Below are positions 3,417-56,955 of a stretch of DNA of 64,000 nt, in pieces; position 1 is the first letter of the stretch; each line of letters begins with the position of its first letter. The stretch covers positions 1 through 64,000 of the forward strand of contig CALDYY010000094.1 of NCBI GenBank assembly GCA_937944245.1. The letters are read 5' to 3'. A program made the position numbers and the translations under genes. Source of the DNA: an uncultured Saprospiraceae bacterium (lineage in GTDB: Bacteria > Bacteroidota > Bacteroidia > Chitinophagales > Saprospiraceae). A model generated the notes under the pieces. That model saw only the letters and a list, made by a program, of their open reading frames with translations. It was not told where the DNA came from and did not search any database.

Positions 3417-3597
3417 TAACATAAAAGAAGAATAAAACAAAGGTATTGTTATGGTCTTTTTGAATGGCTAAGACCTCCTAATAATTTTCAAGGCTAAGAA
3501 CAATATTATCTTATAGTTTGTGATGAAAAAATTAGGATTACTTTATTTTTTAACATTTATAAATATAAAATTATGAAAACTTTTTCACTTGGATTAC

Positions 3598-3634
3598 ATG
3601 GTATGGTATGGTATGGTATGGTATGGTATGGTAT
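3598..3634 (+). repeat. Pentanucleotide tandem repeat (ATGGT x7) spanning the protease start
   Basis: Seven exact ATGGT units (3598-3632) followed by AT. Because 5 is not a multiple of 3, the repeat offers ATG codons in all three frames, and a gain or loss of units changes which upstream ATG is in frame with the protease. At present the signal-peptide-like start at 3573 (MKTFSLGLHG...) runs into a TGA at 3636; with six or nine units it would read straight into the protease. Seen directly; variability is inferred. Confidence 0.9.
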
Positions 3635-5887
3635 ATGATAATTTTCATATCCCAAAAAGGGCATACACAAACAGAAGATTGGTGTGGTTCAAAGCCAACA
3701 ACAGAACATATCAATTATTTAACCCAACTAGCTAATGCTACTCCTGGCTCAAGTCTAGGGAGTAATACTAGTCAGGTTTCGACATTTAATCTACGCTTCA
3801 TTGTTGTAACAAAGGATGATGGCACTTTTGATGGTCTTAATGGCATTCCTAATTTCAATGATGCCCTGTTATCTAGCATTGTTGCTAAAGTTAATACAAA
3901 TTTTAGTGGTTCAAATATTACCTTTAATTATTGTGGTCGCGAAGTCATCAATAACTCTAACTTAACAAATATTAGTGGGCGATATCCTACTTTATTTAGT
4001 ACTGCTTATTACCCAAATGCCATTAACGTGTACATAGTTAGTAATTTACAGAGCGGTGTGTTGGGTATTTCACCAATTGGTGGGGGAGGGAGCAGTTCAG
4101 TAAACTGGATTGGATTAATTGCCAATAATTTTATTGATAGTAACGCAAATGATAGGGTATTAACCCATGAGCTAGGTCACTTTTTTGGTTTACTTCATAC
4201 TTTCCATAATAACAACGAGTTAGTAAATGGCTCAAATTGTCTGTCAGCAGGTGATCTTATTTGTGATACCCCTGCTGATCGTTGGATGCAAGCGGGCTGT
4301 TCAAACACAGTTAGTGCAAGTTGTCTATATACTGGAAACTGTAGAGACCAAAATAATGTGATCATACAACCTTCAGTAAATAACTTTATGTCTTATTATA
4401 GAGCTGTGTGCCGAACAGCTTTTACTCCACAACAGAAAATGACAATGAAACTCAATGAACTGAACTATATCAGTATAAAGAATCTTGCAAATATCCCCTG
4501 TGGAAGTGCTGCGCCAGTTATTTCTGATAGAGTAGAATTTGAAGGAACAAACAAAGGATTAGGTACTAGACTTGATTATACTGCTGTATTTTTAGATGCT
4601 AGTAACAACTTAGTAAGAGGTGGAAATCTGACCGCAAGCAATAATGCAGGAAATTTTAAATTCATTCGTTACCCCAACGAAGTTAAATATGTTTGTGGCG
4701 GTGGAAATATTATTCGTTACTCAGGCGATGTTCTAGATGGGCTATCTACTCTGGACTTAACTTTGATGCAAATGCACATCCTTAACACGCAACCATTAAC
4801 AACTGGCTACCAGAAAATTGCTGCTGATGTAAATGGAAATGGAGCAATTAATGTTTTTGATGTAGTAACTTTGAATAAGGTATTACTAGGTGTTGAACCC
4901 AAGTTTCCTAGTTTTCAATTTCCTTACAGACTAATTCCCGAGTATATTCCTTTGGATTTTACAACCGCATTTAATAACGATCCTTTTAATATACCTAACA
5001 AACCTTACTCAAACTATATGTTAGTTGAACCTCCGGTAACATATGATCCTTTTGATTTGAATATCCAGATACCTATAGGAGCAACGGGGAAAAATGGTTT
5101 CGACGCTATTAAAATAGGAGATTTAAATGCATCTAATTCTATGGCTTCACCTTTTAATAATAACGTAGAATCTCGATCAAGAATCACATTTACCACAGAT
5201 GATATTCGTTGTATTAGACAAGGCGAAAAGAAGTGGATATATGTTATTGGAATACCTGATGATGAAATAGTAGCGTATCAATTAGGCTTTACATATAATA
5301 CAGATAAAATTAAAGTATTGGATATCAAAGATGACGCTTACAATGAACAAGATGATATATGGGGACTAAATGAAGAGGCTGCAAGAGAAGGCTATTTGAA
5401 AACATTGTGGGTAGATAAAAAAGTAACGGCAAGAAGATTCAACGGTAAGAAATGGCTGTCCGTAAGGATAGAGGCTCTAAAAGATATTTGCGACTTGAGG
5501 CAAATATTTGACTCTAACATCGAACAATTAGTTACTACTTTTTGGAATAAGGATTTGCTGGAAGTAGGAGGAGCAATTCGCATTTCTACAAATGGTAATG
5601 GGAACACAGCAAATAGCGGTGGTAATAATGAAGAAACATTTATTGTAAATAGTTTTCCAAACCCTACTAGCGAAGAATTGAATATTACAATTAGTACAAC
5701 TCATCAAGCAAGTGCTTTAATCGTTATTACTGATAGATTCAATCAACTGTTGAAACAGGAAGTGGAATTGTTAGATGGCAATAACCAAATTTCATTAGAT
5801 ATATCATCCCTGTCAACTGGAGTAATATTCTACAATATTTATATGATGGATGGGAAACAATATTCTGGAAGACTAATCAAATTATAA
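3608..5887 (+). CDS. Secreted M43 (pappalysin-like) metalloprotease, T9SS type A cargo
   Basis: Extracellular zinc metalloprotease. The metzincin motif HELGHFFGLLH is at residues 187-197 and is followed by ICDTPAD and a Cys-rich segment ending NFMSYY, which carries the Met-turn typical of family M43. Near residue 407, DVNGNGAINVFDVVTLNKVLLG is a dockerin-like calcium loop. The last 80 residues (FPNPTSEELNI to GRLIKL) are a T9SS type A sorting domain. The N-terminus is uncertain: in-frame ATGs stand at 3608, 3623 and 3635, all inside or next to the ATGGT repeat, and the resulting leader lacks the usual Lys residues. A start at 3573 in another frame has them. Expression or secretion may therefore depend on repeat number. 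Confidence 0.88.
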   Translation: MVWYGMVWYMIIFISQKGHTQTEDWCGSKPTTEHINYLTQLANATPGSSLGSNTSQVSTFNLRFIVVTKDDGTFDGLNGIPNFNDALLSSIVAKVNTNFSGSNITFNYCGREVINNSNLTNISGRYPTLFSTAYYPNAINVYIVSNLQSGVLGISPIGGGGSSSVNWIGLIANNFIDSNANDRVLTHELGHFFGLLHTFHNNNELVNGSNCLSAGDLICDTPADRWMQAGCSNTVSASCLYTGNCRDQNNVIIQPSVNNFMSYYRAVCRTAFTPQQKMTMKLNELNYISIKNLANIPCGSAAPVISDRVEFEGTNKGLGTRLDYTAVFLDASNNLVRGGNLTASNNAGNFKFIRYPNEVKYVCGGGNIIRYSGDVLDGLSTLDLTLMQMHILNTQPLTTGYQKIAADVNGNGAINVFDVVTLNKVLLGVEPKFPSFQFPYRLIPEYIPLDFTTAFNNDPFNIPNKPYSNYMLVEPPVTYDPFDLNIQIPIGATGKNGFDAIKIGDLNASNSMASPFNNNVESRSRITFTTDDIRCIRQGEKKWIYVIGIPDDEIVAYQLGFTYNTDKIKVLDIKDDAYNEQDDIWGLNEEAAREGYLKTLWVDKKVTARRFNGKKWLSVRIEALKDICDLRQIFDSNIEQLVTTFWNKDLLEVGGAIRISTNGNGNTANSGGNNEETFIVNSFPNPTSEELNITISTTHQASALIVITDRFNQLLKQEVELLDGNNQISLDISSLSTGVIFYNIYMMDGKQYSGRLIKL

Positions 5888-54429: not shown

Positions 54430-56955
54430 CTAATCTATGTCTTTAAATACTGTTACGTTACCGAAGCGAATGTAATCATTTTTACCCTCTCGCTTTACTC
54501 TAAGAACATAATAGTAAATGCCAGGTGGTAGCTCTTTGCCATTTTCCGTTTGACCGTACCAAGCATTTTCGTAGGGTTCTTGATAATACACTTTATCATA
54601 CCAACGATTGAAAATAGTAATGTCACTCTTTGCGTAGTTGGTTGGACAACCTAATTTATCCACGATTCTAAATTCTAAAGCATCGTTAAATCCATCATTA
54701 TTAGGTGTTATTCCTTCTGGAAAAACAACACGAGGGTCTATTTTTTCCAGTTCACAAATACCATCTTCATTGCTGGTAACATTAATCCGCACAGTTGCCT
54801 CATCACAAACATCCAAGCAATTCACCAAACAAACTTCATACACAAACTCATCTACTCCAGTACCTTCTTTTGCCGAATATTCAATCGTATTATCAGCCAA
54901 AACCCTAGCATTTCCAAATAGTGGTGTGGTAACTAAATTTACTGTTACCTCTCCATTTATTTTGTCATTATCCAATACTTGAAGTATCAAGTTATTAGCT
55001 GATTCTACTTCAATCGCTACATCATCCAACGCTTCAGGTGTTTCTGGAATCACAATTTCTATGCTCGCTTCACTGTAATTAGGACAATTAGTGGTTGATA
55101 AAGACCATTTAACAATGTAAGTTCCTGATTGATTTGCTGTTATTGTCGTTGCTCTAGTATTTGGATTACTAAAACTCAATCCTTGTGGCGTAGTTGACCA
55201 ACGCCCCATTGCCCCATCGGCTAAATTACCATTTAGCGACCTGCTTTGTTCTAAGCAAAGTGTAATTGAATTAACGCTGCCAGTACCACCACTTGTACCG
55301 CCACCACCAGTGCCACCGCTGCCAGGTATCGTTATTTGCGCAGCCGCTAATCCAAAGCTAGGGTCGCGCAATTCAACGCCAATAGCTCCTTGACAACCTC
55401 TGCCGTCTCTAACCCTAATAGTGTAAGTGCCTGCACCTAAATTAGTAAAAGTTGCGCTATTCTGAAAGTTGCCACCATTAATGGCATAAGTAAAAGGAGC
55501 GGCGCCGCCATTAGCCTGCACAGTAATTGCCCCATTAGTTTGTCCACATCCTGGCTTATTCGTTGAAGCAACAGTCAAATTCACACTTCCCTCATCTCGG
55601 AGTGTGATACTTTGGCTTGATTCACAGCCGTTAGAATCACGTACTCGAACCGTGAATGTGCCTACGCCCAAGCTACCAAATGTTGTGCTACTTTGAAATG
55701 CGCCACCATTTAAACTAAATTGATAGGGACTACGTCCACCAGTTGCAGATACATTGATAAATCCATTGTTTTGTCCACAACTCGGTTGACTACCAATGCT
55801 TGCCGTCAAATTTGGTGCAGCAGGAGCTGTTAAATTTATACTTTGACTTGCCTCACAGCCACTCGCATCTCGTACTCGAATCGTGAATGTGCCTACGCCC
55901 AAGCTACCAAATGTTGTGCTACTCTGAAATGCCCTACCATTTAAACTGAATTGATAAGGACTGCGTCCACCACTTGCTGATGCCGTAATTGAACCGTTGC
56001 TCTGTCCACAGCCCGGCTGATTCGTTACATTTACAGATATACTTGGAGCAGAGCCACCTGTTAAACTTACCGTCTGGCTTGATTCACAACCACTCGCATC
56101 GCGCACTGTTACCGTATAATTGCCGGAATTTAACCCACTAAACGTGCCACTGCCTTGAAAACCACCGCCTATGCTAAATTGATAGGGACTGCGTCCACCA
56201 CTTGCTGATGCCGTAATTGAACCGTTGCTTTGTCCACAGCCCGGTTGATTCGTTACATTTACAGATATACTTGGAGCAGAGCCACCTGTTAAACTTACCG
56301 TCCGGCTTGATTCACAGCCACTCGCATCGCGCACTGTTACCGTATAATTGCCGGAACTTAAGCCACTAAACGTACCACTACTTTGAAAGCCACCACCTAT
56401 GCTAAATTGATAAGGACTGCGTCCACCACTTGCGGAAGCTGTAATTGAACCGTTGCTTTGTCCACAACTAGGCTGATTGGGGAAGGATAAACTTGCAACA
56501 AGAGTACAGTCATCATCATCATTATCGCCAGTTCCACCACCACCAGTTCCACCACCGCCAGTTCCGCCACCACCAGTTCCGCCACCGCCAGTTCCACCAC
56601 CGTCATCATCATCATCGTCATCGTCGTCGTCGTCATCGTCGTCATCATCATCGCCATCTAGTAAAATAGCAGAAACTAAAACAACCTTCCCTAGCGATAC
56701 TTTTTGGGTTAAGTTATATCCATTTCTGATGTTTGAAAGATAGTAAGTGCTATCTCCTATGGCGTAAACTACATTGAAATTATCAGTTTCTTTATTGGCT
56801 GGTAAAGAAAAAGTTATTATTACTTCTTTCCCATCACAACTGGAGCGGACGTATTCATCTGAGTTAGGAGAAAGGACGATCTGAGCACACTGTGACAATG
56901 AAAAAAAAGGAGTAATAATTGATACTAGGATAATATACAATTTTATGTATCTCAT
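54430..56955 (-). CDS. SprB-repeat adhesin-like protein, T9SS type B cargo
   Basis: Surface protein of 841 residues. After a leader (MRYIKLYIILVSIITPFFSLSQ) and a short domain come a run of 17 Asp, a five-fold Gly-Gly-Gly-Gly-Thr linker, and five SprB repeats of 76 residues (GCGQSNGSITASASGGRSPY, SGNYTVTVRDASGCESS). Then follow an Ig-like and a cadherin-like (VLDNDKINGEV) domain. The end is a type B sorting domain (VVFPEGITPNNDGFNDALEF, IFNRWYDKVYYQ, GIYYYVLRV), like the gliding motility CHU_C domain. Such cargo needs PorP/SprF for attachment, and one begins at 63912. It is the second gene of a pair starting at 57770. Confidence 0.9.
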   Translation of the reverse strand: MRYIKLYIILVSIITPFFSLSQCAQIVLSPNSDEYVRSSCDGKEVIITFSLPANKETDNFNVVYAIGDSTYYLSNIRNGYNLTQKVSLGKVVLVSAILLDGDDDDDDDDDDDDDDDDDGGGTGGGGTGGGGTGGGGTGGGGTGDNDDDDCTLVASLSFPNQPSCGQSNGSITASASGGRSPYQFSIGGGFQSSGTFSGLSSGNYTVTVRDASGCESSRTVSLTGGSAPSISVNVTNQPGCGQSNGSITASASGGRSPYQFSIGGGFQGSGTFSGLNSGNYTVTVRDASGCESSQTVSLTGGSAPSISVNVTNQPGCGQSNGSITASASGGRSPYQFSLNGRAFQSSTTFGSLGVGTFTIRVRDASGCEASQSINLTAPAAPNLTASIGSQPSCGQNNGFINVSATGGRSPYQFSLNGGAFQSSTTFGSLGVGTFTVRVRDSNGCESSQSITLRDEGSVNLTVASTNKPGCGQTNGAITVQANGGAAPFTYAINGGNFQNSATFTNLGAGTYTIRVRDGRGCQGAIGVELRDPSFGLAAAQITIPGSGGTGGGGTSGGTGSVNSITLCLEQSRSLNGNLADGAMGRWSTTPQGLSFSNPNTRATTITANQSGTYIVKWSLSTTNCPNYSEASIEIVIPETPEALDDVAIEVESANNLILQVLDNDKINGEVTVNLVTTPLFGNARVLADNTIEYSAKEGTGVDEFVYEVCLVNCLDVCDEATVRINVTSNEDGICELEKIDPRVVFPEGITPNNDGFNDALEFRIVDKLGCPTNYAKSDITIFNRWYDKVYYQEPYENAWYGQTENGKELPPGIYYYVLRVKREGKNDYIRFGNVTVFKDID
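55358..56508 (-). repeat. Five SprB repeats of about 228 bp
   Basis: Tandem units of 76 codons. Units 1-3 (by protein order) are nearly identical in DNA over long stretches (for example the segments beginning at 56041 and 56269, exactly 228 bases apart), while units 4-5 have diverged. Unit number may change by recombination without loss of frame. Confidence 0.85.
56527..56601 (-). repeat. 15-bp tandem repeat x5 (Gly-rich linker)
   Basis: Five consecutive 15-bp units with the pattern RCCAGTTCCRCCACC on the plus strand, encoding GGGGT on the minus strand. In-frame, so copy-number change would only lengthen or shorten the linker. Confidence 0.9.
56602..56652 (-). repeat. Aspartate codon run (17 codons)
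   Basis: Seventeen consecutive GAC/GAT codons directly upstream (in protein order) of the Gly-rich linker. A trinucleotide run of this kind can slip in frame. Confidence 0.9.

Follow-up and report, generated by a model that had tools for sequence, protein, structure and literature searches.

Does the unit number of a short tandem repeat govern the making of a secreted protease in an uncultured member of the Saprospiraceae? The question is raised by a stretch of 64,000 nucleotides (the window), in which a preliminary description had read a repeat of the unit ATGGT, lying at the beginning of a gene for a secreted M43 protease, as a likely phase-variable secretion signal. The features of the locus are as follows.

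3523..3576, plus strand: 17-codon upstream open reading frame, MKKLGLLYFLTFINIKL, with a TGA that overlaps ATG 3573 (ORF reading and start-context score)
3573..3575, plus strand: start codon most likely used for the protease precursor, MKTFSLGLHG... (start-context model)
3598..3634, plus strand: (ATGGT)7 + AT, a 5-bp simple sequence repeat (Tandem Repeats Finder and script check)
3635..5887, plus strand: protease frame from the last in-frame ATG, MIIFISQKGHTQTEDWCG... (translation; the listed ORF runs from 3608, 759 aa)
3636..3638, plus strand: TGA closing the 3573 frame at seven units and overlapping ATG 3635 as ATGA (frame computation)
4022..4450, plus strand: Peptidase_M43 domain (Pfam PF05572, E 4.1e-11; coordinates from the whole-genome search)
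4748..4888, plus strand: dockerin type I-like repeat, residues 381-427 of the 759-aa ORF (Pfam PF00404, E 7.4e-6)
5654..5881, plus strand: T9SS C-terminal sorting domain (PF18962, E 6e-7; TIGR04183, 23.6 bits, over cut-off)

From ATG 3608 the protease frame runs uninterrupted for 759 codons and matches Peptidase_M43, Dockerin_1 and Por_Secre_tail; the zinc motif HELGHFFGLLH can be read directly in the translation. The genome encodes SprA and has about 90 sorting tails above cut-off, from which we take type IX secretion to be in use; the next gene (5944) codes for another type IX cargo protein. The earlier assignment of the gene product as a secreted M43 protease and T9SS cargo is borne out by the M43 domain with its zinc motif, the Por secretion tail and the presence of a T9SS in the genome. 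Upstream of the gene, a search for Bacteroidota-type promoters returned nothing exceeding shuffled sequences, and the computed RNA structure of the 5′ region is no more stable than that of shuffles (z 0.33).

The repeat is exact: a script check found (ATGGT)7 followed by AT at 3598-3634 with zero mismatches, and Tandem Repeats Finder reports period 5, 7.4 copies and 100% matches there, in agreement with the seven units first described. The array is flanked by GGATTAC on its 5′ side and by ATATGATAATTTTC on its 3′ side. It encodes MVWYG and has no stop in any of the three frames, so that growth is possible without a new stop being introduced. We compared pure arrays of period 4-9 across 372,221 bases of this 3.8 Mb genome (the window and 20 stretches; 77 cargo start regions were surveyed besides): the repeat excess of the ATGGT array is 32 bases, against 17 for the runner-up and a maximum of 13 in 30 sample-sized order-4 Markov sequences, and for this reason the array is real and not a product of chance.

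To find the start codon, we scored ATGs with a context matrix derived from 181 genes in the sample of this genome; the matrix shows the A-rich region at -10 to -15 and the A at -3 described for Flavobacterium, where A at -3 and -12/-13 has a published role at starts (PMC6847099). SprA, the sorting tails and this start context all point to Bacteroidota. ATG 3573 scores 7.69, which exceeds 89% of chosen starts and is matched by only 0.1% of 1308 internal ATGs, whereas the seven ATGs of the repeat, like ATG 3635, have scores between -3.9 and -10.1, which place them no higher than the 2nd percentile of starts (the repeat ATGs in the bottom 0-1%, ATG 3635 at the 2nd percentile). Given this difference in context, the protease precursor most likely starts at ATG 3573, and the array, once thought to sit exactly where translation begins, would then lie 25 bases inside the gene. 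The repeat ATGs do not resemble the start sites of this genome, and the idea of a repeat that supplies start codons finds no support in their context. Near their starts, Bacteroidetes genes are depleted in AUG (PMC6847099), which makes it unusual to meet seven of them no more than 60 bases from a start. Further upstream, ATG 3523 has a context score of 1.6 (25th percentile); its frame stops at 3574-3576 regardless of repeat number, and the upstream ORF is therefore outside the switch. Its product resembles the start of a signal peptide, and with the ATGA overlap at 3573 it is possibly a coupled leader ORF.

Read from ATG 3573, the assembled seven-unit state gives MKTFSLGLHGMVWYGMVWYGI, ending at the TGA at 3636-3638. 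When the frame is computed for other unit numbers (n), it continues into the protease at n = 0, 3, 6, 9 or 12, giving 759-779 aa, and ends after 11-65 codons at the remaining n up to 14. The preliminary description had stated that the 3573 start meets a stop after the repeat at present and reads into the protease at six or nine units, and that ATGs 3608, 3623 and 3635 open the protease frame as assembled; the computed frames and the translation agree with it on both points. Since reading from 3573 passes through only at multiples of three, the assembled n = 7 allele most likely represents the OFF state; at best, some weak reinitiation at ATG 3635 might follow from the ATGA overlap. As in a simple-sequence contingency locus, a pure non-triplet array exceeding chance length lies in the 5′ coding region, and its unit number alters the frame of an otherwise intact gene.

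Only where n is a multiple of three does the leader have both a positive charge and a hydrophobic core: Lys-2, then a hydrophobic stretch (MKTFSLGLHG, the MVWYG units, then MVWYMIIFIS). Simple charge and hydropathy measures suggest that the leaders at n = 3, 6 and 9 are charged and hydrophobic but mediocre; their hydrophobicity falls at about the 14-25th percentile of 57 of the genome's own cargo N-termini, below the cargo median, and they have no clear cleavage motif. In the product of ATG 3635 a hydrophobic core is all but missing (4th percentile). That of ATG 3608 in the assembled state, MVWYGMVWYMIIFIS, is hydrophobic enough for a weak signal; the leaders from 3608 and 3623 are without n-region charge, as had been noticed for the repeat-internal starts. 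Among M43 relatives in the order, most carry a conventional signal peptide with a CG-type motif within a few residues after it; DWCGSKP in this protease corresponds to that motif, so that a signal peptide is to be expected right at the array.

We consider it rather probable that the array constitutes a translational ON/OFF contingency locus within the signal peptide, closely similar to that of opa; of the readings considered, a phase-variable switch requires the fewest assumptions, and phase-variable secretion would follow from it. The gene would begin at ATG 3573, (ATGGT)n would be a portion of the signal-peptide coding sequence, and each three units would add MVWYG to the hydrophobic stretch of the leader. 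Slipped-strand mispairing is presumed to alter n and to do so reversibly. At multiples of three, the charged start (MK) would be joined to the hydrophobic core and the mature protease, and the in-frame precursor would presumably be exported by Sec and then by the T9SS; at any other n, translation from 3573 would halt after 11-65 codons and the secreted protease would be absent, save that weak reinitiation at ATG 3635 could possibly yield a protein almost devoid of a signal peptide.

This ON/OFF locus is favoured by an array that is pure, long and rare and by the strong A-rich, Bacteroidota-type context at 3573, and the intact 759-codon frame with its zinc motif and sorting tail is as expected of a gene under selection. 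Signal-coding DNA amounts by simple arithmetic to about 0.2% of the genome (about 96 cargo genes of about 75 bases each), a target in which a random array would rarely fall, though the argument is a post hoc one. Counting against the ON/OFF locus are the single array in the sample with none in 77 of the genome's own cargo regions, the lack of a length variant in the genomes searched, and the mediocre leaders at n = 3, 6 and 9 without a clear cleavage motif. Of the phase-variable signal first proposed, we retain a non-random repeat in a predicted signal peptide, the unit number of which sets the 3573 frame; the N-termini attributed to repeat ATGs are not supported.

At seven units the good start at 3573 is out of frame, which would also be seen if a recent slippage had knocked the gene out of frame in a neutral or transient expansion, the locus being in early decay and switching unselected. 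This is the less likely account, though one to be reckoned with: no orthologue and no second locus of the kind were found in the genomes and sample searched, and a same-genus M43 gene (L010, see below) is broken at a T8 run, from which it appears that such genes can simply break, but nothing else interrupts the 759-codon frame, which retains the catalytic motif and the sorting tail, and a pure 5-mer array of seven units should by its nature be unstable and able to revert. That the unit number is an assembly artefact, the true allele having six or nine units and the gene being constitutively on, is very unlikely; the genome is a 147-contig assembly and a mixed population would collapse to one unit number, yet a single short read easily covers 37 bp, and the sequencing of pentanucleotide arrays is accurate (review PMC4235727).

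Since each unit contains an ATG, all frames have one, and if these were real starts the unit number would select the N-terminus (secreted as against cytoplasmic or differently leadered), the 3608 leader having hydrophobicity enough for a weak signal and the overlap of TGA 3636 with ATG 3635 permitting coupled reinitiation. We regard such alternative N-termini, which the preliminary description had favoured, as improbable: the contexts are among the worst 0-2% of this genome's starts, the 3608 and 3623 leaders are without n-region charge and the 3635 product is without a core. With contexts so poor, loss of the secreted product, and not a different leader, is to be expected outside multiples of three. 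It is very improbable that the array is a three-way selector between a charged Sec leader (n a multiple of three), an uncharged repeat-derived leader and a leaderless reinitiated protein; were it so, slippage would move the location of the protease, not merely its presence.

No second allele, orthologue or flank match was found in three same-genus genomes, 398 family genomes, viral contigs and a species-level genome collection, nor was there a match in phage and viral collections; the best related protein is about 30% identical, and is not a close orthologue. Comparable frame-shifting arrays are absent from the 77 further cargo start regions of the genome, and none of like purity and length was seen when 40 such regions from the same genus were compared; the 77 regions show no repertoire of switches, and the ATGGT array may be a lone locus. 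The ATGGT repeat was rejected as a theme of the family, since it occurs in two of the 398 family genomes, in the other (G411) at unrelated sites. That M43 proteases are a recurrently switched family was not evident in five further same-genus genes with readable 5′ ends, two of which have T7-T8 runs near the start.

The nearest known system is opa of Neisseria, where a (CTCTT)n pentanucleotide in the leader-peptide coding region makes expression dependent on frame (PMC3960869, PMC3899988). Both loci have a pentanucleotide coding repeat in the signal peptide of a surface or secreted protein, with the frame returning at every third unit; they differ in repeat sequence, phylum and export route (an outer-membrane protein in opa, a T9SS cargo here), opa is a gene family and the present array a single locus, and switching has been shown for opa whereas this array is known from sequence alone. 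In the H. influenzae lic genes, several initiation codons lie in different frames around the repeats (PMC4235727, PMC2992063), which gives the idea of alternative starts a precedent of a kind. Like lic1A, lic2A and lic3A with their CAAT repeats, the protease gene has its repeat near the 5′ end, surrounded by multiple ATGs that differ in frame. The alternative ATGs of the lic genes, however, are upstream of the repeat, whereas here they are inside it and in poor context; the initiation codons of lic2A have been tested experimentally, and the repeat ATGs were judged by sequence context. The initial view that the arrangement had no precedent was thus too strong, opa leader repeats being textbook and the multiple start codons of lic known. 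Phase variation by invertible promoters in Bacteroides likewise concerns surface or secreted functions, and in the same phylum, but acts by site-specific inversion and not by the repeat slippage proposed here. We found no report in the open-licence literature of a phase-variable repeat of this kind on a type IX cargo gene. If the switching is real, slipped-strand phase variation of single type IX cargo proteins would join promoter inversion in Bacteroidota, and would be a source of population heterogeneity in an uncultured lineage that is not a classic pathogen.

Several other repeats were observed. The predicted signal-peptide frame of the M43 homologue at L010:1236-1350 (G003:C210, same genus) is broken at a T8 run, its upstream ATG being in frame at T7 or T10 and out of frame at the assembled T8; this could be a mutation, an assembly error or a homopolymer switch. 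The type IX cargo gene L125 (G000:C25:17997-18697, minus strand) has about seven imperfect 12-bp tandem units in its predicted signal peptide (MTNVLLTLNSTRWKSIILFTCLQVCLQVCLQVCLQTCLQTCLQTRLQAQ); 12 bp being a multiple of three, a change in number would alter the length of the leader and not its frame. In G411, of the same family, ACCAT arrays (ATGGT on the opposite strand) of 11 and 10 units occupy L218:3-57 and the last 55 bases of L219; these contig ends probably adjoin, between the end of one gene and the start of a predicted secreted protein (MRSLLLCLFSALFVSAHAQ), which puts the arrays just upstream of a gene. In the window, at 55609-56652, 228-bp tandem units (3.8 copies) adjoin a 15-bp array (CGCCAGTTCCACCAC x5) and a TCA-rich array.
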